The translations under genes and the position numbers were made by a program. A DNA stretch of 64,000 nucleotides from Maylandia zebra (taxonomy: Eukaryota; Chordata; Actinopteri; Cichliformes; Cichlidae), in the NCBI RefSeq assembly GCF_041146795.1, contig NC_135182.1, forward strand, positions 2,876,501-2,940,500. The letters are read 5' to 3'. Shown here piece after piece: positions 4,615 to 63,191 of this stretch. The notes beneath the pieces were generated by a model, which was not told where the DNA came from, ran no database searches, and was given only the letters and a program-made list of their open reading frames with translations. Each line of letters begins with the position of its first letter. Position 1 is the stretch's first letter.

Positions 4615-17256
<12,642 letters not shown>

Positions 17257-19326: not shown

Positions 19327-22300
19327 TTAGTGCCTGGGTGAAGGCTTGCCAGAGGAGGGCTGAGGGAGACGAAACTTGGCCATCTGCATATCCAGGTCTG
19401 CAAATGTGTAGGGGTTGTAGCTGTGGTGCTGGTAGTTTTTGTAAGTGCTGTTATCAAACAGTTCTTCTGGCTCCGAAGGCACAGCTGCAGCTTCTGCAGT
19501 AAGGAGGGGGAGGGAAAGAAAGATGTAAGAAAACTGGTAGAAGGGTGAGCTTTACAAAATGTCTTGTCTGGGAACAGAAATAAAACCAGGTCAGTTAATG
19601 CAGTACTAGGTTTAGTCCTGTGTCCCTGTTACTGATTTTAAAGTAGTAACTGCTGCTTGAAGGGATTCATCACACCACATTTGATAATTTCTAAAAATGA
19701 GAACAAAGATGCAGTTTTGTAAGAGTTTTTTGAGGGGACTGCACATTTCCACATTACTCATGCCAACCCAAGGAGGTTTGTGGCCACATTTTACAGTGGC
19801 AGCAACCCCCAATGGAGTATGGAGACACTAGCATAAGGAGCATCAAGGATCATGTTTGTGACTGGAAAAAGGATGTCAAGAAAAACATGTTTCCAGAGAG
19901 TAAAACAGCCCATCATAGAGAAAGAGTGATACTGCAGAGGTAAGAAAAGAAATGGAACAAGTCCAAAAAAAAAAAAAAAAGGGGGGGGGGGATGTCCGAC
20001 ACCCGCACAGCGCTATGTTACTCTTAAACAGAGATACAAGAGAGAGGGATTTCCTGTAAATCTGCCAGCATGCTGTGACAGTAAAGTTTTGTTTTTCTTT
20101 TTTAAATGAAAACACATTAAAAACTTTTTTCCACCTACACTTAACGAATATGATTCCAGATAAACCAAAAGCTAAGATTTCAAAATGTGAAATAAACAAG
20201 TGGTGCAAGGTGAGGAGTGGGGAAGGAAGGTTACTTCAGGAAGCAGGAATACAGTCTTGGGATGTGTGGGACACTTCCAACTTCAAACACATCTAACAGC
20301 TGTGTAGTTGGATCATCTGAAAGGATTTGCACTCTTCTTTTTTGGGACTCAGTTTTTAAAAAAGGGCCTGCAATCCTGATTCCTGGAGTACTCCCACCAA
20401 CTGCAGCCACTCCCAGCTTCTCCTCGTCCAGCTGCTGTTAGGGAAGAGCAGTATATTCATCTACACTACAATCATGAGCCACTGGTGCACCAGGGTTAAT
20501 GATCTGTGACCTCAACATTACCTCAGGCACCTGTAACTCACATTCCATACACACAAAGATAAGGGTGCAAATGAGCCCATGTGAACAGACGTTAACATGA
20601 GAAAATAGCAGTCAACTACTCTGTGAGGGAAAACAGACACTGTTAGCAGTCCTAGGACAAGAACACTCAAACTGTGAAAGAGTTCAGTTGGTCACAAAGT
20701 CAAAAGGAAGACTGCACAAGCAGGTTTAGTGTAGCAGTATGCAAGAAGTAAGTTCATCTGATGACAAACCTTTAATCACATACACCTTTGCCCTTGATCC
20801 TCCACAACAATTAACTTCAGTTTGAGTATACAAGTCAAGTAAATCCTCCAACAGTAGCATAACAGAGTATGGATGAAAAGAGCCCAAAAGCTCTACAAGC
20901 ATCGACCCACAGTGTGTACAGTAGAAAGCACAACTGGAGAAGAACTACTTATTCCAATTTAAAATGATTCTATCATGATTAACAGGAAGTTAAAAGATTC
21001 CACCTCGTGATATACACTACCGGTCAACAGTTTTAGAACATCCCAATTTTCAGTGGAAATTATGCAGTTCAATGTCTCATTGCACTCTGAAATGAAACAA
21101 CGGTACAAATGAGCAATTTGAGTTAAAAAACAAATCATAGAATCAATTTACAGAGTAAAATGTATTCTAAACTTTTGACTCAAAGTAGCCACTTTGGCAG
21201 ATATAACAGCAGCACACACCCGTGGCATTCTCTCTACAATAGAAATCAAATATTCTTCACAAAGTTCTTCCAATATCTGTTGCAGAAGTTCCCATAAATG
21301 TCGCACCTGTAGGTTGCTTTGCTTCCACTCTTCTCTCCAGTTCATCCCAAACCAGCTCGATGGGGTTTGGGGCTTACTACGACTACTACTGAGCTGTTGT
21401 CCCGTGAGCCGCCATCACACAAGCTGTTAACTCTCAGAAACTTGTCCTCTGATTCAGTTGTGTCTTTGGGTCTGCAGACCTCTTCCTGTCACAGTTTGTT
21501 TCTGAGCCTTTGGATGGTGAAAGAAACTACTCACTGACACCTGGACATTCTTTGCAGTTTCTCTGTAGAAGAAATTTTTAAGTGTTATGATGGTCCATCT
21601 CTCTTCCATTTTTAACTGCCTGTTTCTCGCTATTTTTGTAGCAACACTCTACTTTCAGCAGTACAATACAGTTCAACTGATGCTCACGAGGGTATGGTAC
21701 CACAGTGTGTTCCAACACTGCTTTTATGCAGGCAGAGGGGGAAGTAATCCAGAAAGGTTGGAACACCTGTAGGAATTAGTAGCAGCAGCTTTCAAGGCTT
21801 GATCAACCTCCTTTGCTGCACAACAGCCTTAAATTGTTAACCTATGTTGTGTTCCCTGAAAAAGGCCTTTGTGTATAATTCTGTACATTATTTTACAGTT
21901 TTGGGTAACTTTTTTTTTGTAAACCTCTGGCAGTTCACCACTTACCTTTGTACATTTTCAAGCTGTTCATTGGACCTGAATGACTTGAACTGCAACAAAC
22001 AACTGGAAGAACTGTGGTGCTCTAAAACGTTTGACCGGCAGTGTATATTAAAAAAAGAAAAAAAGAAGTGTTCCACATTAGAGTACAGTAACCACTGTAG
22101 CACAACTGAAATCAGCTCAACCTGTGTTCCCTATATGTCCACTATATGATCGCTTCAATGTTATTAGCAGGAAATAAGCATTTTAGCCATTCTGTGACTA
22201 GAGGGTGTGGGAGGGGTCAGGAGCTGCAGAAAACACTATCTGACATCATGCACTCCAATATAATCGATCCCAGAAAGAACGAAGAAAACTCAATGAAGCT

Positions 22301-25300
22301 TGTTTCTGTCACAAACATGATATTGTGCCAGTTTTCATGTGCCTACAGTATGTTCCTGAGATGATTTCAGTCTACTTTCTAGTCCCGTTATTGTTTGCCA
22401 GCACTAAATTGGCAAGCAGTTCAATCTGCAAAGATGACCTCCATAGAGGTTTTCATCCCGTTTACTTTTTCAGTTCTCTTATGTGGATGAGCAGAACTTT
22501 CAGGGAACTTAAAACAATCAACATCAGTGTAAAGTTGGCATATTCTAATGTCAGGAACAACAAACCTCCGACGTTTGTCTTTAACCTGAACATCATTGTT
22601 GCCAGTGTTTTGGGGTTTGTCAGAGAAAAACAAGTTGCATATCCCAAAGTACTCTCTAATATTACAGACAAGTTTAAACTACTGCATCTCCCTTATTTAT
22701 GTTGGGATCAGAGATATTGCTTTAGTTGCTGTAACTTCTAAGTTAATAATGTTTATTCTTATCCTCTTGTCCCACATGGGAAATTTGTCTTGGACAAACG
22801 GTGCTAAACATAGTAGCATTCTGATAATAAAACCAACACCTAGAGACGCTTAAAGGAGGCCATTAAATAGAAAACACGGACGATACTTTTAAAATACAAC
22901 ATGAACTGTTACATGTGAGGGAAGCTGCCGCCTGGTTAACAGAGCAACAGCACTCAGACTGTGTTTGGAGGCACAGGCAGAAAAACAATGGTCATTTCTA
23001 GAAGAGCCATAAATAAAAAGAGAGGGAGGTAAAGATTTAAGGGTCAGGGTAGTGTAGTGTGTACCCTTAGAGTGTTCAGCTGTGGCCTCTGTCTGCAGTT
23101 CCTCTCCTGCAGTTTCAGTTACAATAGGAGCAAGGTCCATCTGCTCCTCGGTGCTCCCTGCACAGACTGAAGCTTCAGCCGCAGCAGCAACTTCAGCAGG
23201 ACGGGCGTCTTCTGCTCCAGCTTCAGCAGCAGCGTCAACAGCTTCAGCAGGACGGGCGTCTTCTGCTCCAGCTTCAGCAGCAGCGTCAACAGCTTCAGCA
23301 GGACGGGCGTCTTCTGCTCCAGCTTCAGCGTCAACAGCTTCAGCAGGACGGGCATCTTCTGCTCCAGCTTCAGCAGCTTCGCCTCCAGCCACAGGAGCAG
23401 CTTCAGCAGAGGAAGACCTTGGGTCTTTTAGAGCCTCACCAATGGCTTCTATTTGAGCATCAACAGGAAATGCAGCATCTTTTGTCACTCCTGCAGCAGT
23501 TTTGGCTGAAACGTCAGACCCAGTCACCTCTCGAGTGATGATTTCTGGGCCTGACTTCACCAGCTTCTCAAAACCAACACTGGGTACAGTCACTGTAGCT
23601 TGAGCTGCTCCTAAGGGTGCTGGTGTTTCTACACCAGGTGTGATAGGAGCCCCATATTCATTCTGAGCTTCGATAGTGCCTGCCTTTACTCCTGTGACTG
23701 TGATCCTCTGGGGTTCTGCCTCTGGTGCAAAGCCCTTGATTTCTTTCTTCTTCTCATCCTCAGAGTCAGAGTCCGAATCGGAGTCGGTAGAGTCTGAATC
23801 GGAGTCGGTAGAGTCTGAATCGGAGTCGGCTGCTGGTTCAGCAGCTACTTGCTCACTGGCAGCAGTAACAGGAGTGATGGCTTGTGCAGCTACAATGCTT
23901 TCTGCAGTGGAGACAACCGCTGGTCCCGTTCCATCCACAGACTGTGCTGGGAAACATCCAGGCCCTGAAAGTCTAACTGGGAAGGCAACTGCTGTCTTGT
24001 AGGCTAACAGGTTTGCTCTCTCATCTGGAGCCTCTGTTGCTGAAGAAAATGGTAAATATAACATGAACAGTTAAATAATAAAATAATATATTCAATTTGA
24101 TTTGTGGGTGTGCATTCACAACTCCTCTTAGATACTTTTAAATCCCACTTCGAATCAAATGTACTTCCCCAATCCCAGAATCTGGAACTGTTACCTCACA
24201 AACCTATTGTATACGTAACAGAACATCGTTTAAACATTTGATGTTTTCTGACACATCTTACAATTTTATGAACAATATAAGCTTTTTTGAAAAGTGTTAC
24301 TAAAAAAAGAAATGGCAGGGAAAATATTTTGTAACCGATTAGTTTAACAGGCAACAGGTCAGTGACATGATTGAAGAGAGCATCTTAATGAGGTCGAATT
24401 TCTAAAGAAGCAAAGATGAACAGATGATCACCAACTTCTAAAAACTGCCTCTGCAAACTGTGGAACGATTTCAGTATAACGTAAAATTATGGAGACTTTG
24501 AAATCGCGTCAGTTCATGGTATCATCAAAAGAATCAGAATTAAGAGAATCTCTAAGCAGGTACGTGCTGCAAACAAATACTGGATTTTTAGGGCTTCAAG
24601 CTCCACAACATTAAAACGGGCATGAACACTGAAGAGAAGAGGGACGACCCAAAGTCTGCATCTCTACACTAAAATAGGAGATGGGGAATTTTGATTATCA
24701 AGAAATAACATGTTTAAGATCATTCAGAATAGCGTCGTACAAATTTAGAAAATTGGCTATTAGACAGAAGGACCACAAAACTAACAACATGTCACAGAGT
24801 AAAACAGCAGCAGCTTTCTCCCTTACAGACTTCTAGTGAATTCAATTAAAATGATTCAAATGTACCACATGCTCTAAAATGTAAAAATCATATGGCACAT
24901 TGTCTGTGAAGGTTCTCAGTCATCCAGGTCATCGTAGTCAAAGGAGCTTGCAAAGAAAAGCGTCTGGACTAGGGCTGCCACGATTTGTCGACTAGTCACG
25001 ATTACGTCGACTATCAAAATCGTCGACGACTGATTTAATAGTCGACGCGTCGTTTGAAGCTTTGTAAGATCACAAAAGACGCAGGAATAAGTGGCAGGAT
25101 TTAAGAGTGTAATAACGGACTGAAACAGAAGATGGCAGCATTGCATATACAAGGATGCCAGCTGCCGTTAAACCCCGAAGAAGAAGAAGAAGAAACAGCT
25201 GTGTCCCAGAATTCATAGCGCGGCCCAGCGCAGTTTCCAACAATGGCGGCAGCTAGTTAGTTTTAACTTTACTCTTATTATTCTTTCTGGGTCACAAAAT

Positions 25301-28300
25301 AAACGTTTAACATATTTTCAGGCGAGAATGTAGCTGTGTAAACCTCAAATATCTGCTCAGTTTATCAGGACACCACATATTTTCAAAAGCGCTCCGACGT
25401 TTTCGGAGACATCTGTTACCCACTAGCTCGTTAGCGAGCCGGGGGCTAGGCTCACTAGCGCCGCGAGAACACCGGACTCCCCGCAAATCGTTTTCAAACC
25501 CACCGCCGTCTTTCGCTACTCAGGTTAAATATATATGAGTCACTTAGATAACTTAAAATGTTATTGTTTGGCTTTTTTTAGTATTTTATTTGTTCCTGAG
25601 TAAATCAGTTTGTCTGAGATTAAAGTTATAGTTTTTACACAGCTGAATAAACGTCAAGCAGACAACTGATTATCAGAAGTGTGAGATGCTCCAGAATATA
25701 CCCCAGGACACTGGGGTATATTCTGGAGCATATTCTGGGGTATATTTTAGATAGCAAGGAGTTTATTAAACTTCACCGAAACAATCTGCAAATTTCATTA
25801 AAATTTAATAAACTATCATCTTGTCTTTATTTTTAGTTAGCACAGACCTTAAACACTTAAAGCTGTAAGCTAATGATAGTTATATAAGAGCAGATGCTGC
25901 TGGTGCAATAAGCTGTAGTTTTACGTCCAATGGATGATGATCTGATTAGTCGACTAATCGCAAAAATAATCGGTGACTAGTCGACTATCAAAATAATCGT
26001 TTGTGGCAGCCCTAGTCTGGACCTCTTTGAGTTACTTGAAGACGTTTCACCTCTCATCCGAGAAGCTTCTTCACCCGAAACTCTGGCTGATTGGGACCCA
26101 CACCCAGTTTCACACCTTGGCTCAGGCGATTAGAGGATCATCAGGGGGTCCTTTTGTCCCTCTGTGGGGGGAAACTCCCACTAGGTTTATATCTGGGACT
26201 CTCCACCATTTGACCTTAGAACTGAAGAAGCTTCTCGGATGAGAGGTGAAACGTCTTCAAGCAACTTAAAGAAGTCCAGACGCTTTTCTTTGCAAGCTCC
26301 TTTGACCATATGGCACATTAGCTTCACTGTGGAAAGAGGTGCATGTTACGCTTTAAAGGCATCATAACTGAAAGTACACATATACTCATCATGCACATAT
26401 GCATTATTGTATGAATGAACAAAAGCAACCACCCAGCACAACTTAAAAAGCCACAGCGTAAAGCAGTTAACAGAACCCAAAGGTCTTTTTCTTGCCTGCA
26501 CTCTTGGTCTTCTTCCCAGGTTTTGCTGGTTTTTCAGTCTTGGTGCAGAACGAAGCAGCTGGAGAAGTCCTCAGGATTCCCAAGTTCTCCAACTGGAGAC
26601 GCTGCAGAAGAGAACAAAACATTGTCCAGTGAGAGTACAGAACCACACATTCAGGCTCGTTTTTGTGATCATTTCACTGGTTCTCGCAGTGTCCTATTTT
26701 CTTAATCCTGTCTGAAAAGACCTGACACACATTAACTTCTTTATAGTCACTTTAAGTCTATCTGCACCATTTTTGCATCCACCACCACTAAGCATTTATT
26801 TATCTGACCAATTTTAAAGTCTGCCACGAAGAGGAAACTGCCTGAACACCATCAACACTGTCCACCGTGAAGTGAGTTTTACATTGTCATGGTCTGAGAG
26901 GGTGCTGACCTATTAAGAAACCTCTGGTCTACCTCCAAATTCTCCGACTTCACCTCAAACCACCTGAAACTTGGACACACTAGGGCACGGGTGTCAAACT
27001 GCAGCCCTCGAGGGCCGGAGTCCTGAAACGTTTAAATGTGTCCCTGCTGCAACACATCTGAATAAACTATGATCCTTAACACACATCAAAAGTGTTTTTA
27101 GAATGGATAGAGCAGGCTAACATCACACTGAGGCTACGTTCACTCTGCAGGTCTTAATGCTCAATTCAGATTTTTTGACCAAATCCGATTTTTTTGTCTG
27201 CTCGTTCACACTACAAATAAAATGCGACAGCAAACGCGCTCTAGTGTGAACGCTCAAAGCGGCCGCATGCGCAAAAGAAGACGTCACACACAACGCGCTC
27301 TGTTTAGACCCAGAACAACAGCATGTTTGACTGATGGCCTTAATGTAAAGACTTCAGACTTTACGTTTTCCAATTTTTGCTTTAAGTTATTTTGTTATTG
27401 ACATAATAATGTAAATAACCTAATAATGATCCTTATTGCTGTTTTAGAGGAGCGCTGCTTCAAAGGATAGCTGCAGATTTCTGTCAGAATCTGCAGATTA
27501 TACAGTACAAATAAAATGTTCACGTTTCTCCAACGCTGTCTTCCCAACAGTTTCACTGACATCTACGCTGGATGGCCAGGAAGCGTTCGTGATGTCTTCT
27601 CCGGAGCTGATAATTAGTGTCTGTCTTGTGTCAGTGACGTAAAAGACGGATTTAATGCGACATGACCATCAAACAGCAGTCGCTTTCTAAAACATCAGAT
27701 ATGTATCGGATTCAGGACCACATACGAAAGTGACCCAGATCGGATTTGTGCCGTTCACACTGTCACACCATGATCGGATAGATGGGTCGAATAGGGTCAC
27801 AAAAAAAAAAAAAAAAAAAAAAAAAAATCGGATTTGATGCGCTTTCGCCTGCAGTGTGAACGCAGCCTTACTGAATGTCCTTCCCAAAGATCCCAACTTC
27901 AACCTTATTGAAAATTTGTGGACTACACTTAAAAGTTGGATCCATCCCAGGAATCCAACCAATTTAAATAAACTCTACCAATTGTACCAGAAAGATTGGT
28001 CATATAACCAGCCAGAATTATGCCAGAGGTTTACTGGTGACTACCAAAAGCATCTGGTTGAGGTGTCAGTGTTTGCATATATTCAAGCCAGTATGTATAT
28101 TTTTGACTGTGTATGGAAAATCCAAAATAAATTCAAACTTTAAAGCCATTAAAGATATATGCTGTACAATCATTCCACCCTGGAAAAAAGAACAAGTCAA
28201 ATTAGCGTGACATTCATGCCCAGTGATGAGCGTATATAAACTTCTGACCTAAACTGTACACACTGCTCGTTTTGAGCGCTCTTATTTAGACTGATCAACT

Positions 28301-29705
28301 GTAACATTATAATCATCTTCCTAACATAGTGTTGGTCCTCCTTCAGCTGCCAAAACAACCCTGACTTCAGGCCGAGGCATGGACTACACCAGACTCCTGA
28401 TGGTGCGCAGTGGAATCTGGCACCAACATGTCAGATCCTTCAGGTCCTGTAAGCTGCGAGCTGGGACCTCCATAGATCTGACTTTTTTGTCCTACACGTC
28501 TCACAGATGCTCGACTGAACTGAGATCTTGGGATTTGGAGGCCAAGTGAGCGCCTCAAAATCATTGTTGTGAACCATGAACCATTTCTGAACCTTTTTGC
28601 TCCGTGGCAGCATGCATTACCTCGGCCATCAGAGAATACCCACAAAGATTCACGTTTTCCCAGCAGAACTTTACCCAAAGCATCACATTGCCGTCACACT
28701 AGGAGATGCTCTGACCCCGTCGTCTAGCCATCCCACTTTGGCCCTTATCAAACAGTCAAATCCTCATGCTTCCCCGTTTCTTCCTGCTTCTAACACATGA
28801 TCCTTGGGGAGAAAATGTCCACTTACTCCCAAATATATTCCAAATCAGGTCAGCAAATCAAAATTTTACTTCACATGTCAATGATCATAATGTTATGCCT
28901 GATGAGTAAATTCATCTATTCATAAAATCAGACTGTGAAGACATTTTAGCTTTATTATGTTCGTTTATCACCTATTTTATCAAGTCACCGAGGAAAGGTG
29001 TGAGTTGGGGCTGACACGCCTGGGAAGGGTTCTAAAAGTCGGTCCCAAGGCCAACACTCCCAAACACAAGCTAAAAACATGTATAAAACATGTATACAGT
29101 CAAGTGCAGCAGGGAATGCTGGGACCTCTACAAAGGAGAAACCAAACAGCCATCCCACAACATGGAAGAGCCACCACAGCGTAAGACTCAGTTGTACACC
29201 TGCACATAAAGGATGCCGATGTTCACATTTTGGACCAAGGGACAAAAAGTACGTGAGGACCATCATCATTATCATCTGACAGGAGCCATCAGCCACCAAC
29301 AATTCAGTTTTGTGCCTGTATGCTGTGCAATCCATCCCCCCTAAGAAAAAAATCAGTCCTAACCGTGATAAAAACCGGCTTAAACTATCAGAGCACAGAG
29401 ATCATTTATTTCCCCTTTTTCAAAGTGGTTCGCCTCTTTCCAATAACAACAGGAACAAACGATGTGACCTGTAACTGTGACAGTTTCAGGGTCATGTGTC
29501 GGTGCTGCGGTTGGCCTGTCCTGTTCCGACAGTTGCCGTCTGGTCTGTACTACAGACGCCAGCGTTGATGTGACTGAGTCCAAGTGTTGTATCTGTACTA
29601 GTACAACTAAACACGACACCGATACAGTAAAACACTGAGAGCTAGTACAGTTCTTGTTACCTTGAGAGGACCCAATCGTCCTATGCGAAACAAGAAAGTC
29701 GCCAT
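19327..29705 (-). CDS. ndufv3: NADH:ubiquinone oxidoreductase subunit V3 (complex I), complete copy
   Basis: NDUFV3 is an accessory subunit of mitochondrial complex I (N-module, matrix arm). Minus-strand exons: 29705-29661, 26601-26496, cassette 24039-23065, last 19493-19327. Exon 1 encodes a presequence starting [15 protein letters not shown]. The last exon holds the family signature [14 protein letters not shown] and ends [11 protein letters not shown], like the human protein. The short isoform (exons 1, 2, 4) is 105 aa. The 975-nt cassette adds 325 aa rich in Ala/Glu and a Ser-Asp tract, as in the vertebrate long form. Exon 2 ends with CAG followed by GCAAGA, a GC-type donor. This is the only reading that gives phase 1 and joins in frame to both acceptors. 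Exons 1-3 lie in duplication unit 1. The last exon is outside the duplication and single-copy. Confidence 0.95.
19963..19990. repeat. Poly(A)/poly(G) tract
   Basis: A run of A directly followed by a run of G in the last ndufv3 intron. It is low-complexity sequence that is prone to length errors. Confidence 0.9.
21013..22045. mobile_element. Tc1/mariner-type MITE holding the duplication breakpoint
   Basis: Terminal inverted repeats TACACTACCGGTCAA (left) and, reversed, TACACTGCCGGTCAA (right) are flanked by TA dinucleotides (21011-21012, 22046-22047), as expected for Tc1/mariner. No intact transposase is seen. It lies in the last ndufv3 intron. The left boundary of the tandem duplication (21602) falls inside it, so unit 2 begins with only its right part. 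Confidence 0.82.
23175..23375 (-). repeat. Ala-Glu tandem repeat in the ndufv3 cassette exon
   Basis: In the minus-strand frame, four units of roughly 42-48 bp encode [16 protein letters not shown]-like blocks. Lengths vary through a missing AlaAla. Further along the exon, towards 23760-23830, GAATCGGAGTCG units encode a Ser-Asp acidic tract. The frame stays open in both duplication units. Confidence 0.9.
24937..26306. mobile_element. Fold-back element interrupted by a hAT element
   Basis: The outer arms 24937-24969 and 26274-26306 are perfect 33-nt inverted repeats. The inner parts of the arms continue at 26015-26073 and 26222-26273, after the hAT insertion at 24970-26014 is removed. Each arm is about 85 bp or more, around a ~150-bp centre. 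No transposase is visible. The family is not named here. Confidence 0.75.
24970..26014. mobile_element. Non-autonomous hAT element (unit 1)
   Basis: Inverted ends TAGGGCTGCCACGATT and, reversed, TAGGGCTGCCACAAACGATT are followed by repeated GTCGACTA subterminal motifs. An exact 8-bp target duplication GTCTGGAC lies at 24962-24969 and 26015-26022. No transposase is present. A 21-nt perfect hairpin arm pair (25686-25706 and 25711-25731) lies inside. Confidence 0.9.
26983..27130. repeat. Truncated hAT-type MITE end (unit 1)
   Basis: The sequence around CACGGGTGTCAAACTGCAG followed by CCCTCGAGGGCCGGAGTCC resembles one end of a very common fish hAT MITE. The matching inverted end is not present, so this is a partial copy. 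Confidence 0.5.
27131..27868. mobile_element. MITE with CGTTCACAC-type inverted repeats (unit 1)
   Basis: The left end AGGCTACGTTCACTCTGCAG and the reversed right end AGGCTGCGTTCACACTGCAG are inverted repeats with two mismatches. Subterminal ATCCGAT/ATCGGAT motifs occur at both ends, with a ~27-nt A run near the right end. Flanking target duplications are not clear; only ACTGA is shared. The structure suggests a hAT-like MITE. Confidence 0.7.
27869..28143 (+). pseudogene. Tc1-like transposase C-terminal relic (unit 1)
   Basis: The plus-strand frame reads [18 protein letters not shown] and then [18 protein letters not shown]. This matches the conserved end of Tc1 transposases (the NPIENLW region with the third catalytic acidic residue). 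The N-terminal two thirds are absent, so it is inactive. Confidence 0.8.
28325..28800. repeat. Dispersed teleost repeat (unit 1)
   Basis: The stretch around GCCAAAACAACCCTGACTTC, the segment with CTGTAAGCTGCGAGCTGGGA, and CCCAGCAGAACTTTACCCAA resemble a repeat I know as widespread in teleost genomes. I assign no class. Open frames across it have no protein match that I recognise. Confidence 0.45.
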
Positions 29706-29960
29706 TTCGTGTTCCCAATATTATTCTCCGGTCGGAAACTGGGCTTAAATACAAGAGTTCCGTGATACCAATGGAACTTTGAAAAACAATGTTTTGATTT
29801 TAAAGGATTTAAAAGCGACGTGATTCGATAGGCCTTCTTTTTACTTTTACTATATAGTGATTTAGGTTGTGTCAGTACAGACATTTGGAGGCTTCTCCTC
29901 GTGTAAATAAGCGAGACTCACTCTTGTGGCGGCGCCACAGCGGATCACCTGCCTCCATCT
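29706..29960 (-). promoter_or_regulatory. ndufv3 promoter region (unit 1)
   Basis: This is the stretch upstream of the start codon on the minus strand. It includes the GC-rich GTGGCGGCGCCAC around 29928-29941. The start codon sits in CGAAATGGCGAC, which fits the YY1-type AANATGGCG pattern often found at starts of mitochondrial-protein genes. The assignment rests on position and composition only. Confidence 0.4.
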
Positions 29961-32689
29961 ATCCCCGTGGAGATGAAACCCATCTCCACAGTGACACCTG
30001 CTGGCCAATTTGGCTGTGGTCACAACTGCTTATTATACTGTGACTGTGAATAACTCAACACAAATTTCGGAGAAATCCACACAAACAACAAACAAAAATA
30101 TTGAGACTGTTAAAGACAACAAGCTGTGACTGTAATGGATTCTCCCTCTGTTAACAATCGTGCTGCTCTTTACAATAAATCAGTTTATAAAGTAAAACAC
30201 ACAGAGAGGAGACTGCTGTGTTTGCTGCAATAAGCACACAGGTTTCCAGCTGCATTTCCAAGTAGGATTCAGCAGGTCAGAAAACCCTAACACTGGCTGT
30301 AATGGCTCCACATAGGGAGAAGGATCGACTCCCAGCAATTTCTATTGTGGGCTTCTGTAGATTTTCTTTATGCACATGCTGTAATCTGCTGACCTGCTGC
30401 TCTCTGTGTCCTTAAACAACTGAATTTAACAAGATGTCAGCAGTTTCATCCCCCACACTGACACTATACAGTTTATACTGTCTTTACACTTGACAGTGTA
30501 CAGCTGGAGTTCAGTGAATTAATCTAAGCATCATCAGCTTAAATACAAATTCATCTCTGCCAGACTTGATAAAACCTAAATCTGAGCATGAGCACCACAG
30601 CCACTGTGTATCCGTACAACACAGTGCTTTACTGTGTTGTACACACTCACTACAGTTACTGGACTCTACACACTGTCACTTTAAACAATGCCACTTTGAA
30701 TGCTCACTGCACAGTTTTGCACAAACTGTAAATGCTAAACTATTTGTTTTAAATTCTCCATAATTTTTAACACTTTTAGTATTTTTATTACAGTTTTAAT
30801 TTTAGTATTATTATTTTTTCTTTAATATACCTGTTTACTTTATATATGTTCATGTAAAGTTGGGGGACACGCGTCTAAGAATTTCAATAGGACTAAATGT
30901 TGCTACAATGTTATCTGTATATGACAATTTGTATGAATAGTCTGTGGGCCACTGTTGCTTGTGCTGTACAAAGTAAGCAGCCAGGGCGGTGAAGAGGGAA
31001 GATATACGAAAGTACCTGGAGAGCTGAAGTGAAACTGACTGTTAATTGTAATGAAAAAATGTCCACGACAGATGCTGTCTATGCTTTTCTTGCTGTATTT
31101 AGTTTTACATCTGCTCCCAGCGATGTACAATTAGGATCTTAAAGGCTTTCATGGGAGCACATCTGAAGTGGGTGAACAGCTTGCTCTTGCTGTTAGAACA
31201 TGTATGTAGACAGACGTGTTTCTGGGACCATAAATTATGCATTAGCTGCTCTTTTTATACCCAATCATGTCACTGACCTGGCCAGTTAACATAATCAGTG
31301 GCAAAAGATATTTCTTTTGATGTCACTTACTTTTCCAGCTTTTTGTTCTCCCCACCCCAACTTCGAAGAGCTGACGCTGCCATCAAATTCAAAATGAGAA
31401 ATTATAATCATGAATTACTGTATTCTGTTTTTATTTATATTTTACACAGTGTTACAACTTTTCTACTTTTGGAGTTGGTAGAGAATTTACTCCAGTGTCC
31501 TGTTATATTTTAAGTAACAAGGAGCAGACGGCTGAGTCTATTAAACTCCACTGAGACAGCTGGTGACACAAATCTGAAGGCTAGACCGTCCCCTTTCACA
31601 GCCACTCACTTCCAGCATTCTCAGTCTTCGGAGGACTTGGCCCACGTAGACTGTGAAGGCCGGGTCCCCCGAAGGATGCAGCTCCTGAATTGAGAAAAAG
31701 CTAATGTAGGCTTTAAGGGTCCTCCTTTCCAGGCATCTGAGGACCAGGTGTCCCACCAACAGGGTCCACAGAGACATTACGATAAAAAGTGTTTTGCCTC
31801 AGTTGTTGCCAACTGCGCCGATGTGTCAAGCCATCCTGCACAAAGAGGTGCAGAACAACGCTGTCACAGACATAAATAAAAGGGTGCAGTATGTTCAAAA
31901 AAGGGGGAAAAATCAAAGTACAGGTCAGTCTGTCTCCCAGCGAGGGTGGAGCTGTACCAGCTTTGGATGCAATCCCCCGGGTCCCTTGGTTGCCATGGAG
32001 AGGGAGTAACACAGTCACTCATACCCTAACATTCACATACATATACTCTTTTGGACATACTGGGGGCAACTCAGGGTTCAGCATCTTGCTCAAAGATACT
32101 TTGACACAGGACAGGAGGGGCAAGGGATTCATCCACCAACCTTCCAGCTTGCTTTACTATTTGAGCCACAGCCACAGCTGACAACAGACCCAGTTTCTTA
32201 TGAGGCTTCTCTGTCACTGGGTCTTATGGAGAATTTTCACCAGCATCTTGCTCTATTTCACAAGGGAAACTGTTTCATTTAGAGCTTGCTTGCGTTGCCC
32301 CGTGTATCCCTCCCTGTGGCTGGATGCCATCTCAGTGACATGGTGCAAGTTTCCCACAAATGCCGTTTAAAAAAGTATTCACTGTGGGTATCCCCGTGGG
32401 TATGATGGATATGAGCAAAACTGTAACAACAGATGCCATGTTGACAGGGTGGGGCTGCCATGCTGCCAGGCCCCAGTGCTCGAGCTGTTGTACATATTTC
32501 TGTACAGCCTGCGTGCGCTGGGCACAATGAGCCATTCACTAAAACAACAGACCCTAAACCTGAACAGCAGCATCACAGCAATGTTAAAATACCTCAATAA
32601 TAAACTTCCCCGCCTTTCAAGCTAAGCGCTACCTGTGCTGGAAGTATGAGCAGTCTTTAAATCTTAATTTTCAAGGTTTTGCTCCGATT
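29961..32689. other. ndufv3-wdr4 intergenic region (unit 1)
   Basis: The divergent intergenic space. Around 32040-32175 lies a fragment of a dispersed fish repeat (TTGCTCAAAGATACTTTGAC onward to GAGCCACAGCC). Minus-strand frames at 31541-31777 and 32279-32597 are open but short, and I do not recognise them. Otherwise nothing is supported. Confidence 0.45.
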
Positions 32690-32845
32690 TTAAAGTTATT
32701 TTTACTCGTACTTCTTCTCCTGTGGACACGGCCGCGCTTCTTATGTGCGTCCCGTACTCAAGGGGCGTTCCGTGACGTATTTCGTACGCGACAAAATACG
32801 GCAGTTTCCCGTCGCACACATGGGTGCCCAGTCGCGTTAAGCATC
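32690..32845 (+). promoter_or_regulatory. wdr4 core promoter (unit 1)
   Basis: A CpG-rich stretch immediately upstream of the wdr4 start codon at 32846. It contains a CRE-like TGACGTA at 32773-32779 and no obvious TATA box. The same sequence precedes the complete gene at 47356-47511. Confidence 0.5.
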
Positions 32846-36047: not shown

Positions 36048-36267
36048 GTAAGAAACACCACTATCATTCAGTGCCTTATAAATAAGTCTATCAAAAGAAG
36101 TGTTTTGGCTGCTGATTCCTCACGGTGGATAAACAAACATGTTAGCAGTATGTGTGTTTTATGTATGCGTTTCCATCAGTCATTTATAGCATGTTGCTCT
36201 TGCCTTTAGTGGCAGCTGTCTGACAACATACTGCACTGAAATCTGCCGTTGGGTAGTCATCAGTGTA

Positions 36268-41796: not shown

Positions 41797-42534
41797 AGGC
41801 TACGTTCACTCTGCAGGTCTTAATGCTCAATTCAGATTTTTTGACCAAATCCGATTTTTTTGTCTGCTCGTTCACACTACAAATAAAATGCGACAGCAAA
41901 CGCGCTCTAGTGTGAACGCTCAAAGCGGCCGCATGCGCAAAAGAAGACGTCACACACAACGCGCTCTGTTTAGACCCAGAACAACAGCATGTTTGACTGA
42001 TGGCCTTAATGTAAAGACTTCAGACTTTACGTTTTCCAATTTTTGCTTTAAGTTATTTTGTTATTGACATAATAATGTAAATAACCTAATAATGATCCTT
42101 ATTGCTGTTTTAGAGGAGCGCTGCTTCAAAGGATAGCTGCAGATTTCTGTCAGAATCTGCAGATTATACAGTACAAATAAAATGTTCACGTTTCTCCAAC
42201 GCTGTCTTCCCAACAGTTTCACTGACATCTACGCTGGATGGCCAGGAAGCGTTCGTGATGTCTTCTCCGGAGCTGATAATTAGTGTCTGTCTTGTGTCAG
42301 TGACGTAAAAGACGGATTTAATGCGACATGACCATCAAACAGCAGTCGCTTTCTAAAACATCAGATATGTATCGGATTCAGGACCACATACGAAAGTGAC
42401 CCAGATCGGATTTGTGCCGTTCACACTGTCACACCATGATCGGATAGATGGGTCGAATAGGGTCACAAAAAAAAAAAAAAAAAAAAAAAAAAATCGGATT
42501 TGATGCGCTTTCGCCTGCAGTGTGAACGCAGCCT
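41797..42534. mobile_element. MITE with CGTTCACAC-type inverted repeats (unit 2)
   Basis: A copy of 27131-27868. Even the long A run has the same length as in unit 1. Confidence 0.7.
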
Positions 42535-42809
42535 TACTGAATGTCCTTCCCAAAGATCCCAACTTCAACCTTATTGAAAATTTGTGGACTACACTTAAAA
42601 GTTGGATCCATCCCAGGAATCCAACCAATTTAAATAAACTCTACCAATTGTACCAGAAAGATTGGTCATATAACCAGCCAGAATTATGCCAGAGGTTTAC
42701 TGGTGACTACCAAAAGCATCTGGTTGAGGTGTCAGTGTTTGCATATATTCAAGCCAGTATGTATATTTTTGACTGTGTATGGAAAATCCAAAATAAATTC
42801 AAACTTTAA
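42535..42809 (+). pseudogene. Tc1-like transposase C-terminal relic (unit 2)
   Basis: A copy of 27869-28143 with the same [13 protein letters not shown] segment. Confidence 0.8.
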
Positions 42810-42990
42810 AGCCATTAAAGATATATGCTGTACAATCATTCCACCCTGGAAAAAAGAACAAGTCAAATTAGCGTGACATTCATGCCCAGTGATGAGCGTA
42901 TATAAACTTCTGACCTAAACTGTACACACTGCTCGTTTTGAGCGCTCTTATTTAGACTGATCAACTGTAACATTATAATCATCTTCCTAA

Positions 42991-43466
42991 CATAGTGTTG
43001 GTCCTCCTTCAGCTGCCAAAACAACCCTGACTTCAGGCCGAGGCATGGACTACACCAGACTCCTGATGGTGCGCAGTGGAATCTGGCACCAACATGTCAG
43101 ATCCTTCAGGTCCTGTAAGCTGCGAGCTGGGACCTCCATAGATCTGACTTTTTTGTCCTACACGTCTCACAGATGCTCGACTGAACTGAGATCTTGGGAT
43201 TTGGAGGCCAAGTGAGCGCCTCAAAATCATTGTTGTGAACCATGAACCATTTCTGAACCTTTTTGCTCCGTGGCAGCATGCATTACCTCGGCCATCAGAG
43301 AATACCCACAAAGATTCACGTTTTCCCAGCAGAACTTTACCCAAAGCATCACATTGCCGTCACACTAGGAGATGCTCTGACCCCGTCGTCTAGCCATCCC
43401 ACTTTGGCCCTTATCAAACAGTCAAATCCTCATGCTTCCCCGTTTCTTCCTGCTTCTAACACATGA
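42991..43466. repeat. Dispersed teleost repeat (unit 2)
   Basis: A copy of 28325-28800; the class is not assigned. Confidence 0.45.
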
Positions 43467-46400
43467 TCCTTGGGGAGAAAATGTCCACTTACTCCCAAAT
43501 ATATTCCAAATCAGGTCAGCAAATCAAAATTTTACTTCACATGTCAATGATCATAATGTTATGCCTGATGAGTAAATTCATCTATTCATAAAATCAGACT
43601 GTGAAGACATTTTAGCTTTATTATGTTCGTTTATCACCTATTTTATCAAGTCACCGAGGAAAGGTGTGAGTTGGGGCTGACACGCCTGGGAAGGGTTCTA
43701 AAAGTCGGTCCCAAGGCCAACACTCCCAAACACAAGCTAAAAACATGTATAAAACATGTATACAGTCAAGTGCAGCAGGGAATGCTGGGACCTCTACAAA
43801 GGAGAAACCAAACAGCCATCCCACAACATGGAAGAGCCACCACAGCGTAAGACTCAGTTGTACACCTGCACATAAAGGATGCCGATGTTCACATTTTGGA
43901 CCAAGGGACAAAAAGTACGTGAGGACCATCATCATCATCATCTGACAGGAGCCATCAGCCACCAACAATTCAGTTTTGTGCCTGTATGCTGTGCAATCCA
44001 TCCCCCCTAAGAAAAAAATCAGTCCTAACCGTGATAAAAACCGGCTTAAACTATCAGAGCACAGAGATCATTTATTTCCCCTTTTTCAAAGTGGTTCGCC
44101 TCTTTCCAATAACAACAGGAACAAACGATGTGACCTGTAACTGTGACAGTTTCAGGGTCATGTGTCGGTGCTGCGGTTGGCCTGTCCTGTTCCGACAGTT
44201 GCCGTCTGGTCTGTACTACAGACGCCAGCGTTGATGTGACTGAGTCCAAGTGTTGTATCTGTACTAGTACAACTAAACACGACACCGATACAGTAAAACA
44301 CTGAGAGCTAGTACAGTTCTTGTTACCTTGAGAGGACCCAATCGTCCTATGCGAAACAAGAAAGTCGCCATTTCGTGTTCCCAATATTATTCTCCGGTCG
44401 GAAACTGGGCTTAAATACAAGAGTTCCGTGATACCAATGGAACTTTGAAAAACAATGTTTTGATTTTAAAGGATTTAAAAGCGACGTGATTCGATAGGCC
44501 TTCTTTTTACTTTTACTATATAGTGATTTAGGTTGTGTCAGTACAGACATTTGGAGGCTTCTCCTCGTGTAAATAAGCGAGACTCACTCTTGTGGCGGCG
44601 CCACAGCGGATCACCTGCCTCCATCTATCCCCGTGGAGATGAAACCCATCTCCACAGTGACACCTGCTGGCCAATTTGGCTGTGGTCACAACTGCTTATT
44701 ATACTGTGACTGTGAATAACTCAACACAAATTTCGGAGAAATCCACACAAACAACAAACAAAAATATTGAGACTGTTAAAGACAACAAGCTGTGACTGTA
44801 ATGGATTCTCCCTCTGTTAACAATCGTGCTGCTCTTTACAATAAATCAGTTTATAAAGTAAAACACACAGAGAGGAGACTGCTGTGTTTGCTGCAATAAG
44901 CACACAGGTTTCCAGCTGCATTTCCAAGTAGGATTCAGCAGGTCAGAAAACCCTAACACTGGCTGTAATGGCTCCACATAGGGAGAAGGATCGACTCCCA
45001 GCAATTTCTATTGTGGGCTTCTGTAGATTTTCTTTATGCACATGCTGTAATCTGCTGACCTGCTGCTCTCTGTGTCCTTAAACAACTGAATTTAACAAGA
45101 TGTCAGCAGTTTCATCCCCCACACTGACACTATACAGTTTATACTGTCTTTACACTTGACAGTGTACAGCTGGAGTTCAGTGAATTAATCTAAGCATCAT
45201 CAGCTTAAATACAAATTCATCTCTGCCAGACTTGATAAAACCTAAATCTGAGCATGAGCACCACAGCCACTGTGTATCCGTACAACACAGTGCTTTACTG
45301 TGTTGTACACACTCACTACAGTTACTGGACTCTACACACTGTCACTTTAAACAATGCCACTTTGAATGCTCACTGCACAGTTTTGCACAAACTGTAAATG
45401 CTAAACTATTTGTTTTAAATTCTCCATAATTTTTAACACTTTTAGTATTTTTATTACAGTTTTAATTTTAGTATTATTATTTTTTCTTTAATATACCTGT
45501 TTACTTTATATATGTTCATGTAAAGTTGGGGGACACGCGTCTAAGAATTTCAATAGGACTAAATGTTGCTACAATGTTATCTGTATATGACAATTTGTAT
45601 GAATAGTCTGTGGGCCACTGTTGCTTGTGCTGTACAAAGTAAGCAGCCAGGGCGGTGAAGAGGGAAGATATACGAAAGTACCTGGAGAGCTGAAGTGAAA
45701 CTGACTGTTAATTGTAATGAAAAAATGTCCACGACAGATGCTGTCTATGCTTTTCTTGCTGTATTTAGTTTTACATCTGCTCCCAGCGATGTACAATTAG
45801 GATCTTAAAGGCTTTCATGGGAGCACATCTGAAGTGGGTGAACAGCTTGCTCTTGCTGTTAGAACATGTATGTAGACAGACGTGTTTCTGGGACCATAAA
45901 TTATGCATTAGCTGCTCTTTTTATACCCAATCATGTCACTGACCTGGCCAGTTAACATAATCAGTGGCAAAAGATATTTCTTTTGATGTCACTTACTTTT
46001 CCAGCTTTTTGTTCTCCCCACCCCAACTTCGAAGAGCTGACGCTGCCATCAAATTCAAAATGAGAAATTATAATCATGAATTACTGTATTCTGTTTTTAT
46101 TTATATTTTACACAGTGTTACAACTTTTCTACTTTTGGAGTTGGTAGAGAATTTACTCCAGTGTCCTGTTATATTTTAAGTAACAAGGAGCAGACGGCTG
46201 AGTCTATTAAACTCCACTGAGACAGCTGGTGACACAAATCTGAAGGCTAGACCGTCCCCTTTCACAGCCACTCACTTCCAGCATTCTCAGTCTTCGGAGG
46301 ACTTGGCCCACGTAGACTGTGAAGGCCGGGTCCCCCGAAGGATGCAGCTCCTGAATTGAGAAAAAGCTAATGTAGGCTTTAAGGGTCCTCCTTTCCAGGC

Positions 46401-47355
46401 ATCTGAGGACCAGGTGTCCCACCAACAGGGTCCACAGAGACATTACGATAAAAAGTGTTTTGCCTCAGTTGTTGCCAACTGCGCCGATGTGTCAAGCCAT
46501 CCTGCACAAAGAGGTGCAGAACAACGCTGTCACAGACATAAATAAAAGGGTGCAGTATGTTCAAAAAAGGGGGAAAAATCAAAGTACAGGTCAGTCTGTC
46601 TCCCAGCGAGGGTGGAGCTGTACCAGCTTTGGATGCAATCCCCCGGGTCCCTTGGTTGCCATGGAGAGGGAGTAACACAGTCACTCATACCCTAACATTC
46701 ACATACATATACTCTTTTGGACATACTGGGGGCAACTCAGGGTTCAGCATCTTGCTCAAAGATACTTTGACACAGGACAGGAGGGGCAAGGGATTCATCC
46801 ACCAACCTTCCAGCTTGCTTTACTATTTGAGCCACAGCCACAGCTGACAACAGACCCAGTTTCTTATGAGGCTTCTCTGTCACTGGGTCTTATGGAGAAT
46901 TTTCACCAGCATCTTGCTCTATTTCACAAGGGAAACTGTTTCATTTAGAGCTTGCTTGCGTTGCCCCGTGTATCCCTCCCTGTGGCTGGATGCCATCTCA
47001 GTGACATGGTGCAAGTTTCCCACAAATGCCGTTTAAAAAAGTATTCACTGTGGGTATCCCCGTGGGTATGATGGATATGAGCAAAACTGTAACAACAGAT
47101 GCCATGTTGACAGGGTGGGGCTGCCATGCTGCCAGGCCCCAGTGCTCGAGCTGTTGTACATATTTCTGTACAGCCTGCGTGCGCTGGGCACAATGAGCCA
47201 TTCACTAAAACAACAGACCCTAAACCTGAACAGCAGCATCACAGCAATGTTAAAATACCTCAATAATAAACTTCCCCGCCTTTCAAGCTAAGCGCTACCT
47301 GTGCTGGAAGTATGAGCAGTCTTTAAATCTTAATTTTCAAGGTTTTGCTCCGATT

Positions 47356-47511
47356 TTAAAGTTATTTTTACTCGTACTTCTTCTCCTGTGGACACGGCCG
47401 CGCTTCTTATGTGCGTCCCGTACTCAAGGGGCGTTCCGTGACGTATTTCGTACGCGACAAAATACGGCAGTTTCCCGTCGCACACATGGGTGCCCAGTCG
47501 CGTTAAGCATC
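47356..47511 (+). promoter_or_regulatory. wdr4 core promoter (unit 2, complete gene)
   Basis: A CpG-rich stretch identical to 32690-32845, with the CRE-like TGACGTA at 47439-47445. It is directly upstream of the start codon of the complete wdr4. Confidence 0.5.
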
Positions 47512-50500
47512 ATGAGTGCTGTAGGTTTTTGTGGAAACTGGATTATTATCACCTGCGACAAAAAACTGTTTGCAGTGCATACAAAGGAAACCAGGTTTGA
47601 CTTTAAATCTCTTTCATTGGCTCCGTGTTAGAAATGCTCGCAGCTCTTCACGTTAGAGCGAATACACTGGGACATGGACGTATGGTTAGCTTGCTTTTAG
47701 GGCTTTCTAAAATAGGAGGTCATACTTAATTATACTGTTTAAAGAAAGTGCTGTTACCCTTACACCCCACCCAACCAAGCGCTCTCCTTGCTCAATCTAT
47801 ACTTGTGGATAATCATACAAGAAAATCTGTGAATATGGGGTAACTCTTGTTTATTGTGTAGAGATATATAAATCATGACACAACGATGGTTTCAAATGAT
47901 AAAAACCGCCACTTACGAATTACACTTGGTTCCACAAAAACGTGTACGGGGATCACATTTTTGCAGTGTTGCTCCTGCAAACACCAACAGGGGAAGTGAT
48001 GTAAAACAAGCTGAAAGCTCTCAGCTTTAATTAAAGGGGTTCCTCCATTTCCACAGGCTCAACAGAAACTGAGCCGGCAAAGTTATGAGGGTTATTTGAA
48101 CATTAGATTAACATCCTCTGCGTCAAAGACTGCTTGAAGTCTGGAACCGATGAACATTAGCGAATAGTTTCCTCCTCTGAGATGCTCTGCCGCCTGCCAC
48201 CACCTTCAGCTGCTTCAAACCTCTGAGTACATTCATGATGGCATCTTTTGACTTTGGACATCTGGAAAATACTGCTGTAGCTCTCCTGGTTGAGCTGTCT
48301 GTATATGAAACACTGAGCTCTTGTTACAGAGGCCTAGGTTTGCTTGGTATCTGGCAGCCTGTGATTTCTTTCTGCTCCTCTTTAAGTGTTGCTATCTACA
48401 GATAACATGCTAAAAAGTAACAAATTGTTGGTACATGTTTAGGTGTTCCTCCTGTATCCGAGGTTCGACTAACGGACGAACTCTCCTTTCCAGCACCCTG
48501 GCATAGACTTTCCCAGGGAGGCTGAGGAGTGTGATCCCCCTGTAGTTGGAACACACCCTCCGGTCCCCTTTCTTAAAGATGGGGACCACCACCCCGGTCT
48601 TCCAGTCCACAGGTACTGCCCCTGATCTCCACGCAACATTGCAGAGGCGTGTCAACCAGGACAGCCCTACAACATCCAGAGCCTTCAGGAACTCGGGGCG
48701 GACCTCATCAACACCAGGAGCTCTGCCACCAAGGAGTTGTTTAACTGCCTCAGTGACCTCGCCCCCGGAAATTGGCGGGTCATTCCCCTCATCCCCAGAC
48801 TCTGCTTCCTCCTCGGAAGACGTGTCAGTGGGATTAAGGAGGTCCTCGAAGTATTCCTTCCACCGCCTGACAATTTTCTCAGTCGACGTCAGCAGCGCTC
48901 CGCCAGCACTATACACAGTGCAGGTAGAGCACCGCTTTCCCCTCCTGAGACGCCTGACGGTTTGCCAGAATCTCTTCGAGGCAGTCCGAAAGTCTTTTTC
49001 CATGGCCTCTCCGAACTCCTCCCACACCCAAGTTTTTGCTTCAGCCACTGCCCGCACTGGAACGGTTCGCAGCCGAGTGTGAAGCAGCGGGAATGAGGAT
49101 CAGCACCTCCAAATCTGAGGCCATGGTTCTCAGCCGGAAAAGGGTGGAGTGCCCACTCCGGGTCGGGGATGAGTTCCTGCCACAAGTGGAGGAGTTCAAG
49201 TATCTCGGGGTCTTGTTCGCGAGTGATGGGAGAAGGGAGCCGGAGATCGACAGACTGATTGGGGCTGCAGCTGCAGTAATGCAGACGCTGCACCGGTCCG
49301 TCGTGGTGAAGAGGGAGCTGAGTGTAAAAGCGAAGCTCTCAATTTACCGGTCGATCTACGTCCCTACCCTCACCTATGGCCACGAGCTGTTGGTAGTGAC
49401 CGAAAGAACGAGATCGCGGATACAAGCGGCAGAAATGAGCTTCCTCCGAAGGGTGGCTGGCCTCTCCCTTAGAGATAGGGTGAGAAGTTCGACCATCCGG
49501 GAGGGGCTCAGAGTAGAGCAGCTGCTCCACATCGAAAGGAGCCAGCTGAGGTGGTTCGGGCATCTGGCGAGGATGCCCCCTGGGCGCCTCCTGGGTGAGG
49601 TGTTCCAGGCATGTCCCACCGGGAGGAGGCCCCGGGGCAGACCCAGGACACGCTACAGAGATTATATCTCTCGGCTGGCCTGGGAACGCCTTGGTATTCC
49701 CCCGGATAAGCTGGAGGAGGTGGCTGGGGAGAGGGAGGTCTGGGCCTCTTTGCTTAGGCTGCTGCCCCCGCGACCCGGCCCCGGACAAAGCGGATGAAGA
49801 TGGATGGATGGATGTTTAGGTGTTTGCTCTCCTATAAGCTTTTTTTTCTTTACCAGCCTAATGAAAGTATTATTTCATTTGCATCAGCAACTTGTGTTGG
49901 GACAAATTAACATGAACTAAATCCAAATGTGACACTTTTAAATAATAAGAACACAGAAACAAGTCATCTGCCAGCTGTCCTGTTACTTTATTGCTGCTGA
50001 AATATATGATTGTTGAGTGGATAACGGGCAGTAAAATTTCAGATGGAATTGTAACTGATTTACTCTCCTTGATCACAGAGATCCATTTGTGTTTGACTGC
50101 AGCACTGCTGAGAAGAAGCCTAAGAATACAAAGGATGAGAAGAACAGGTATAAATGGGCTGGTAATGTGTTTGTATTGTGCAAATGAAAATAAGAATATG
50201 AACAAGAGAAAAATAGACGCAGAGTAGAAGCAGATTTATGCAGCATTTAGACTGCTGTGGGAAATCTCACAGAAGTTTCCGTCAGGCTTTAGGATATAGC
50301 TATAACGTATCTGCTCTGTTCATCAGTGATGGTGGTTCCTCAGAAGAAACAGGAAGTGATAAAGTCCTCGCCTTTGCTGTATCTCCATCTGGAAAGCTCC
50401 TGGCACTGACTGATGACAACAAGAGACTAGTTCTGTTTCGCTGTGAGCCTTCATGGCACTACATCAGCATCAGGTATGACTTCACCTCTGTCACTCAGTT

Positions 50501-53500
50501 TCAGTAGCTTCATCTACTGCACGGAAGTGTTCAGAACGGCGCTGTGTGTCTAACAGGTGGGTGGTGAGGAGGTGCACGTCCCTGGTGTTCACCCAGGCTG
50601 AGGAGGAGCTGCTGGTGGCGGACAAATCAGGAGATGTGTACGTGTTCTCGGTGGTTGAGCCACAGAAAGAAGGCGAGCTGAAGATGGGCCACCTATCTAT
50701 GCTGCTAGCTCTAGTAAGAAACACCACTATCATTCAGTGCCTTATAAATAAGTCTATCAAAAGAAGTGTTTTGGCTGCTGATTCCTCACGGTGGATAAAC
50801 AAACATGTTAGCAGTATGTGTGTTTTATGTATGCGTTTCCATCAGTCATTTATAGCATGTTGCTCTTGCCTTTAGTGGCAGCTGTCTGACAACATACTGC
50901 ACTGAAATCTGCCGTTGGGTAGTCATCAGTGTATTTTTTATCAGAATGTCTGCTAAAGATGCTCTTGTGCCGTCTTTCAGACAGTGGCGCTGGATGACAA
51001 GTACATCATCACAGCTGACCGTGATGAGAAGATCAGAGTGAGCCATCTCAGGTCTCCATACAACATCCAGTCCTTCTGCCTGGGACATCGTCAGTGAGTG
51101 TGTTAACAGAAAGGGAGAACACTGTCTGTGCACGGTTTCACTGTAGCAGCGTGTAGGTGAGGTTTGCTTCAGTGTTTTTTATGTGTTCTCTCAGGTTTGT
51201 CAGCGCCCTGCAGATCCTGTCAGCACATCCACACTGGCTTCTGTCTGGATCAGGGGTACGTGACATCTAACATGAAGTCTGCGTGTTCTCCCAGTATATG
51301 TATGAGTAGGGCTGGGCGATATGGCCTAAAATTCATATCGTGATATAATTTGAAGCATGTGCAGTAACGATATGTAACGCGATATATTCTCTTCTTCTGT
51401 ATAACGTATTTTCCACACTGTAAGGACTTAAAATCCTTTAATTTTCTCAAAAATCAAGAGTGTTCCTTATGTATGAATTCCGGTTGTGCTTACTGACCTT
51501 GAACAGATTTTGGCTGCAGAAATCTGTTAAAAAATGTTTTAGTACAACTTTGGTAAGCCGCACTGCTTGATGGATTGTCAGAGCATTACGGCTGCCGTAG
51601 TGAGGAGCTTCGTGGAGTAAGCTGGGTCCAAAACTCCGTCCGATTCAGGTCCCAAAGTCAAACAAACACTGAGAGTTAAAAATGGTCTAAATTCTTTCAT
51701 CTTTAATAAAATCATCAGCGTTGCTGCTTTATCGGGTGTAACAATTAAGTTTAACATCCAGGCATCCATGAAAACAGAATTTATTAAATTTCTGTTTTCA
51801 CTTCCTGTTAACTGTAGAAGTTAACAGGAAGTTAGCTCGCTAGTTTACACCTAAACATGACATAGCATGTTCTGACTGAGAGATTTCTGAAACTAATTCA
51901 AACGTACAGCTCTGCTACCACTTCCAACATAAATGAAGACAGAAAACTAAACAGCAGTGGCGTTTGCAGGGTTACTGAAGTTGGACTACCTGCTATATAA
52001 TGATGTGCTACCTGATTGCTAGCGACACAGCTATGTTAGCATAACATTAGCACAGTGAAGCTGGAGGCTGAACGCCAACTTTTTTTCCACTGATAAAAGT
52101 TAACGTGAGGGATTCTGGTGGTCAGGGACAAATGCAGTCGCATAGCAGGATGCTGTACACGGGCCAAACTTCAGTCTGGACAACTAAGATTATTCATCCA
52201 CAATACGAGGTTAGTTATTAATATACTGCAGCAACATGGGAACAGAGTAGCTGCAAGAGAATTCAACATTAATGAATCAATGTTACGGAAGTGGAGGAAG
52301 CGCAGTTTTTGGCTTTCCCCATATTTCAAAAGTGCTTCATCTCTTTGCTGTGACTGTCGGCATAATTTGCAGATGATGATGGTTGTAGCCGCTGCGATGC
52401 TTTCGACCAAAACAGGCGCAGCTTGATGACATCATCAACATGCGCTATGGTGATAGAGCGGTATAGTTAAAATCTCTATCGTTGGCCAAATTTATATCGT
52501 TTCTATCGTATATCGTTTCTATCGCCCACCCCTATGTATGAGTTTTCTCACAGTTTGTCCCACTGTTGTAAAGCATGTCAGGCCATTGTTACCTGTCATG
52601 GGCAGTTCTCCATGAGCTTCACTCTACATCAACATTAAAAAAAAGAGTGGTCATAGAATAGAAGGGTCATAAATGTGTTTTATTGAAACAATGTCTTGTT
52701 TTGTGTCTTTTGACACGCTGTACTCTACTGATGAACAAATCATGTGAATGAGATTGGAAAAAATAACAAGTCAAAACAGCAAAAATGCACATTTGCTGGG
52801 GTTGGATTTTATTGAAGTACTTTGACTGTGCAGTTTGAGTGTCAGTGTGCTTCTTCACCAGGATGGGACGTTGAAGCTGTGGGACTATGAATCTGGTTCT
52901 GAGCTGCAGAGTTTGGACCTCAGACAGCTTGACGAGACCACAAGCTCTGAGGCTGACAAAGACAAGGTATCCAGTGTGTTTCATCCTGTAACACTGAGGC
53001 TACAACACAGGTTCAGCCTAACCTAACCTGTGTGGCTTCTCTAAAGCTGCACGATGTAGCTGGATGGAGAGAAATTGCCTCAGAAGTGTTAAAAATGCAT
53101 AGCATATAAACTAAAGTGTGCAGTGATGTGTGTGACATCTGAGGACTGCATGTGTTTCAGTTCTGTTGGTGATGATTTACACAGGATTTATTAAGTTCAG
53201 CTTCATGAATCATCATTTTCTTTCAAAAAGCTTCCTGTGCACATAAATGTAACCTGCGTTCAAGTCCCGGTGTAAAACTGGGACATCTGGGCTTCCACTC
53301 ATACCTGTATTTTGTATATGGCCATAAAGTGGCCTATAATGATCCTTCTACTAGAAAGCATAGGTTTACATATTACAGACTGTAGACAGTAAACTTTAAA
53401 GATTAATATATGGTTTGAATAACCTGCTGCTACATCCTGAAGTGTTTGGGATTTATATTAAGCTAATATCAATGTTAGCCTGCTTTTATCAGAAAATGGT

Positions 53501-62964: not shown

Positions 62965-63191
62965 GTCTGACACTTCCTACTGTCAGGTTTCCGACAAAGG
63001 GGCGGAGACAGTCAGGGTTAGTTGTAGTAAACCTGCTAGGGGGCAGGTTAGCTTCACGGCGTGTGTCGTCATAGTGACTCACTCAGGCTTCAGCTGAACT
63101 CGCTTTGTGAAACCGAAAACCCAGAGTTTTCGTTAACTCAGGGTATACTTACTCAGTTTTTCCACTAAACCGGCTTCCTGAAACAGGGCCC

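Follow-up and report, generated by a model that had tools for sequence, protein, structure and literature searches.

A gapless 14,666-bp direct tandem pair across wdr4 and ndufv3 in a Maylandia zebra assembly, probably a homotype false duplication

Two adjacent direct copies of 14,666 bp, differing at a single position, span the 5' halves of the divergent genes wdr4 and ndufv3 in Maylandia zebra. Judged on the sequence, the pair is probably a homotype false duplication introduced during assembly, and it looks more like an unmerged assembler overlap than a biological duplication. An initial annotation of this DNA had raised the doubt of a false assembly duplication, and this is the right doubt. 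A real and very recent tandem duplication takes a substantial minority of our confidence, with a very small remainder left to all other readings; this division is a judgement and not a computed posterior. The window referred to below is the whole stretch of 64,000 nucleotides that was analysed (assembly GCF_041146795.1, contig NC_135182.1, positions 2,876,501 to 2,940,500).

Extent and identity of the tandem pair

The near-perfect direct tandem described in the initial annotation is borne out by ungapped comparison of unit 1 (21602-36267) with unit 2 (36268-50933), in which 14,665 of the 14,666 positions are equal. As the two units stay in equal register with one mismatch, there is no insertion or deletion between them. 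The sole difference, T at 29270 in unit 1 and C at 43936 in unit 2, falls within an interrupted CAT tract in ndufv3 intron 1. Over the 1 kb to each side of the pair, identity at the unit spacing is at background level (0.14 to 0.44 per 50-bp bin). Among the 51 repeat pairs found in the window by self-BLAST (E up to 1e-3), the two units form the longest and the next measures 332 bp at 78%; chance is no explanation for a match of 14.7 kb. Two tracts within the unit are equal in length between the copies, namely a run of 27 A at 27801-27827 (42467-42493 in unit 2) and a coding minisatellite in ndufv3 exon 3 at 23191-23377, with a period of about 51 bp, which is identical at 37857-38043 in unit 2.

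The degree of identity bears directly on two further explanations. If one animal's two haplotypes had been placed in succession, as in a heterotype false duplication, the single difference could be a heterozygous site, and heterotype duplications are the larger false-duplication class in five of the six assemblies in Table 1 of Ko et al. (PMC9516828). At 0.1% heterozygosity, however, one would expect about 15 differences, with a probability of 6.7e-6 for one or fewer. The differences are far too few, so that a heterotype origin would need an unusually homozygous stretch, and we consider it highly improbable. An older tandem duplication whose copies gene conversion or unequal exchange had kept alike seems more improbable again. 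Either process could account for near-identity across the unit, but homogenisation would have to reach both boundaries, and the sole difference lies near the unit middle.

Junction and breakpoints

The units meet at 36267/36268 with a 1-bp microhomology (T), no inserted bases and no N, and their boundary is ambiguous by one base, as 36268 and 50934 are both T. When 200,000 random equally spaced breakpoint pairs were drawn, 44.4% had a homology of at least 1 bp; junction homology is thus at chance level, and no repair signature is present at the junction. Comparison of the 2-kb regions at the two breakpoints yielded no alignment that crosses the breakpoints, and hence no shared repeat there, and the longest exact match between these regions is 14 bp, situated more than 600 bp away from the breakpoints. 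Non-allelic homologous recombination between repeats was rejected on the basis of these alignments and the 1-bp homology.

A sequencing-adaptor remnant was also considered and rejected. Neither 15-base end of a PacBio hairpin adaptor occurs exactly in the window, and such an error would give inverted and not direct copies.

By eye, the left breakpoint adjoins or sits in an apparent decayed Tc1-type transposon at 21150-21650, which includes a Tc1-like frame on the minus strand (21373-21260), a short piece without a Pfam match. Another frame, inside the unit at 27838-28143, resembles the end of a Tc1-type transposase (Pfam DDE_3, E 0.0057, below the curated cut-off).

Overlapping contig ends as the probable origin

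Near-identity, the equal length of the 27-A run and of the coding minisatellite across the units, chance-level junction homology and the lack of a common repeat at the breakpoints all support an assembly artefact. A length of 14,666 bp falls within the range of common long reads generally. We infer that two contigs with a common end of 14,666 bp, about one long read, would have been set end to end with their overlap unmerged, and that the gap between them would have been either closed or never written. The animal would then have one copy of this stretch, ndufv3 and wdr4 would be a normal pair of single-copy neighbours, and the additional promoters and exons would be nonexistent.

Such errors are recognised in the literature, where two studies describe homotype false duplications as contig ends that overlap but were set one after the other (PMC8081667, PMC9516828), and where Ko et al. 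2022 count genes falsely gained, in whole or in part, through duplication errors (PMC9516828). The pair is similar to these published cases in its tandem, direct and near-identical copies, in its partial gene gains and in a length that is plausible for one long read, whereas it is unlike them in that no N gap separates the copies. Rhie et al. 2021 describe scaffolded homotype copies with a gap between them (PMC8081667), and for Ko et al. an inter-copy gap is one of the primary characteristics and is present most often (PMC9516828). The 64-kb window has no N letters anywhere, and the absence of the expected gap counts against an artefact. According to Ko et al., wrong gap filling or other errors had joined some of the copies (PMC9516828); this leaves room for gapless cases, and the missing N lowers the claim without defeating it. 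It also counts against an artefact that homotype duplications are the smaller class in five of the six Table 1 assemblies, and that Ko et al. report a true allele-specific tandem duplication within one contig (PMC9516828).

If the pair is a false duplication of the homotype kind, it represents a compact case of how two genes could each acquire a false partial paralogue through a gapless overlap error, and it could mislead the annotation of both wdr4 and ndufv3.

Two divergent genes across the pair

Gene models place one whole copy of each gene and one additional 5' half of each in the assembled sequence, in agreement with the initial annotation. The complete ndufv3 gene occupies 19327-29705 on the minus strand, with exons 1 (29705-29661), 2 (26601-26496) and 3 (24039-23065) in unit 1 and exon 4 (19493-19327) outside it. 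Because exon 4 sits to the left of unit 1, ndufv3 is whole through that unit. The extra ndufv3 half, at 37731-44371 on the minus strand of unit 2, holds exons 1-3 (unit 1 positions plus 14,666) and has no exon 4. Reading frames of a long form (exons 1-2-3-4) and a short form (1-2-4) are both open. For the short form, solved NDUFV3 chains give a match over residues 2-105 (best E 7.2e-25), and the Pfam family NDUFV3 matches as well (PF15880, E 1.5e-16).

On the plus strand, the complete wdr4 gene extends from 47512 to approximately 58940. Exons 1-4 (47512-47594, 50079-50147, 50327-50473 and 50557-50713) lie in unit 2, and exons 5-9 (50981-51093, 51195-51255, 52862-52966, 54771-54835 and 56666-56852) lie to its right; exons 10 and 11, near 57.3 and 58.8 kb, were read by eye from frames. 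With exon 5 onwards to the right of unit 2, wdr4 is whole through that unit. The extra wdr4 half in unit 1 (32846-36047, plus strand) carries exons 1-4 and lacks exons 5 onwards. Exons 1-9 form an open frame of 329 residues, for which solved WDR4 chains give a match over residues 4-328 with a best E of 2.7e-78; the two gene names given in the initial annotation are supported by these matches to solved chains and by the Pfam assignment.

Both breakpoints are intronic, as had been proposed. The left breakpoint (21602) is inside ndufv3 intron 3 (3,571 bp) and the right breakpoint (50933), 47 bp ahead of exon 5, is inside wdr4 intron 4 (267 bp when counted once). Of the 14,666 bases in the unit, 1,582 (10.8%) belong to coding exons, so chance alone would be expected to place breakpoints in introns. 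The initial annotation had presented the arrangement, if real, as a gene-preserving promoter duplication. Both genes are indeed spared, yet the idea that their preservation is remarkable finds no support, since it follows automatically: two divergent genes both stay whole under any tandem duplication that breaks once in each. Gene preservation is no evidence of selection.

Several features were observed within these genes. Intron 2 of ndufv3 apparently has a GC-AG splice pair, with the donor CAG|GCAAGA at 26490-26496; the choice of this GC donor for exon 2 leaves the long and short forms open, and nearby GT donors were judged by hand only. Exon 3 of ndufv3 (23065-24039) contains an acidic DSDSDSTD run in addition to the minisatellite, its length of 975 is divisible by 3, and the frame is still open when the exon is skipped. 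In wdr4 intron 1, a G+C-rich stretch at 33744-35131 has long frames that appear by eye to be like those of non-LTR retrotransposons and that have no Pfam match.

A possible recent duplication and its transcripts

A single mismatch would also be seen after a real, very recent tandem duplication, either fixed or segregating, that arose with hardly any homology through end joining or replication-based repair, and we regard this as a possible, if less probable, source of the pair. It is favoured by the gapless sequence. A 1-bp junction homology is compatible with end joining, though an arbitrary join gives at least 1 bp with a P of 0.444. The pair is also similar to the known kind of recent tandem copy-number variant that has both breakpoints in genes: the copies run head to tail between sharp boundaries with almost no microhomology, and gene fragments lie at the inner ends; it differs in being known from an assembly alone. 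Among the literature matches listed, none reports a wdr4/ndufv3 duplication in fish, judging from titles and the opening lines of abstracts.

With the mean mutation rate for fish of 5.97e-9 given in PMC9995274, one substitution corresponds to an age of about 5,700 generations (Poisson 95% range, 145-31,800), which would be in keeping with a recent event. Weak evidence against it comes from the 27-A run, which is unchanged where about 0.8 changes would be expected in two copies over about 5,700 generations. This argument lapses for a younger duplication, which would show no change. The human mononucleotide rate used for this expectation is 6.8e-5 per locus, with long runs under-sampled according to its authors (PMC9743774), and the portion of PMC12769509 available holds no usable rate for long A runs.

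Were the duplication real, each gene would retain one whole copy, and the extra 5' halves would be transcribed convergently toward the junction. The extra wdr4 exons 1-4 of unit 1 and the extra ndufv3 exons 1-3 of unit 2 point at each other across it. From reading phase only, and with wdr4 frames taken up to exon 9, the unit-1 wdr4 half could give frame-shifted transcripts, or a normal one by skipping to exon 5. Splicing of copy-1 exon 4 to copy-2 exon 2, 3 or 4 shifts the frame and leads to a stop after 157, 152 or 166 residues, respectively, and the normal frame returns with the skip to exon 5. The idea that the additional promoters would be useful gains no support, given that both extra promoters would drive toward the junction and that the three wdr4 exon-repeating splices tested are frame-shifted.

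For ndufv3, read-through from unit 2 could yield an in-frame transcript in which exon 3 occurs twice. A splice from exon 3 to exon 2 leads to a stop after 397 residues, and one from exon 3 to exon 3 is in frame; the order 1-2-3-3-4 is open to the final stop, which is a further point in favour of a real recent duplication. We judge it improbable that all of the following hold together: that the pair is a genuine young tandem duplication, that it provides a complex I gene and a tRNA-methylation gene each with a second promoter and 5' half while both are spared, and that the outer ndufv3 promoter gives an in-frame NDUFV3 with its long exon 3 repeated. A real duplication would count as a young structural variant in which promoter dosage is uncoupled from gene dosage for both genes, and it could serve to test how a cell deals with convergent transcripts and with exons repeated in frame.

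Promoters, gene neighbourhood and other elements

Two CpG-rich stretches are likely promoters, one at about 29.6-30.0 kb, where observed/expected values are 1.1 and 0.83, and one at about 32.6-33.0 kb, where they are 1.56 and 0.89. Three CpG bins in a repeat-like stretch at 34.2-34.8 kb also reach 0.69-0.94. The first coding exons of wdr4 and ndufv3 are about 3.1 kb apart, and this looks like two promoters and not one that is shared.

Past ndufv3, a Meis/PKNOX N-terminal domain is encoded at 8576-8938 on the minus strand. The WDR4-NDUFV3-PKNOX1 order of genes at human 21q22.3 is similar in that wdr4 and ndufv3 are divergent and a Meis/PKNOX-type domain lies past ndufv3; the assembled cichlid sequence differs by the extra 5' halves that lie between wdr4 and ndufv3.

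A structural RNA was considered and rejected, as nothing in the window matches an Rfam family at gathering score. Elements outside the pair were also observed. Transposase pieces, presumably Harbinger-like, are present at 61683-62976 on the minus strand, with a Pfam DDE_Tnp_4 match for 61683-62090 and no match for 62509-62976. A reverse transcriptase fragment is found at 5652-6137 (Pfam RVT_1, E 4.1e-11). Finally, an imperfect palindrome of about 224 bp at 53699-53922, with 74.8% identity to its own reverse complement, is possibly the remnant of a hairpin-type transposon.
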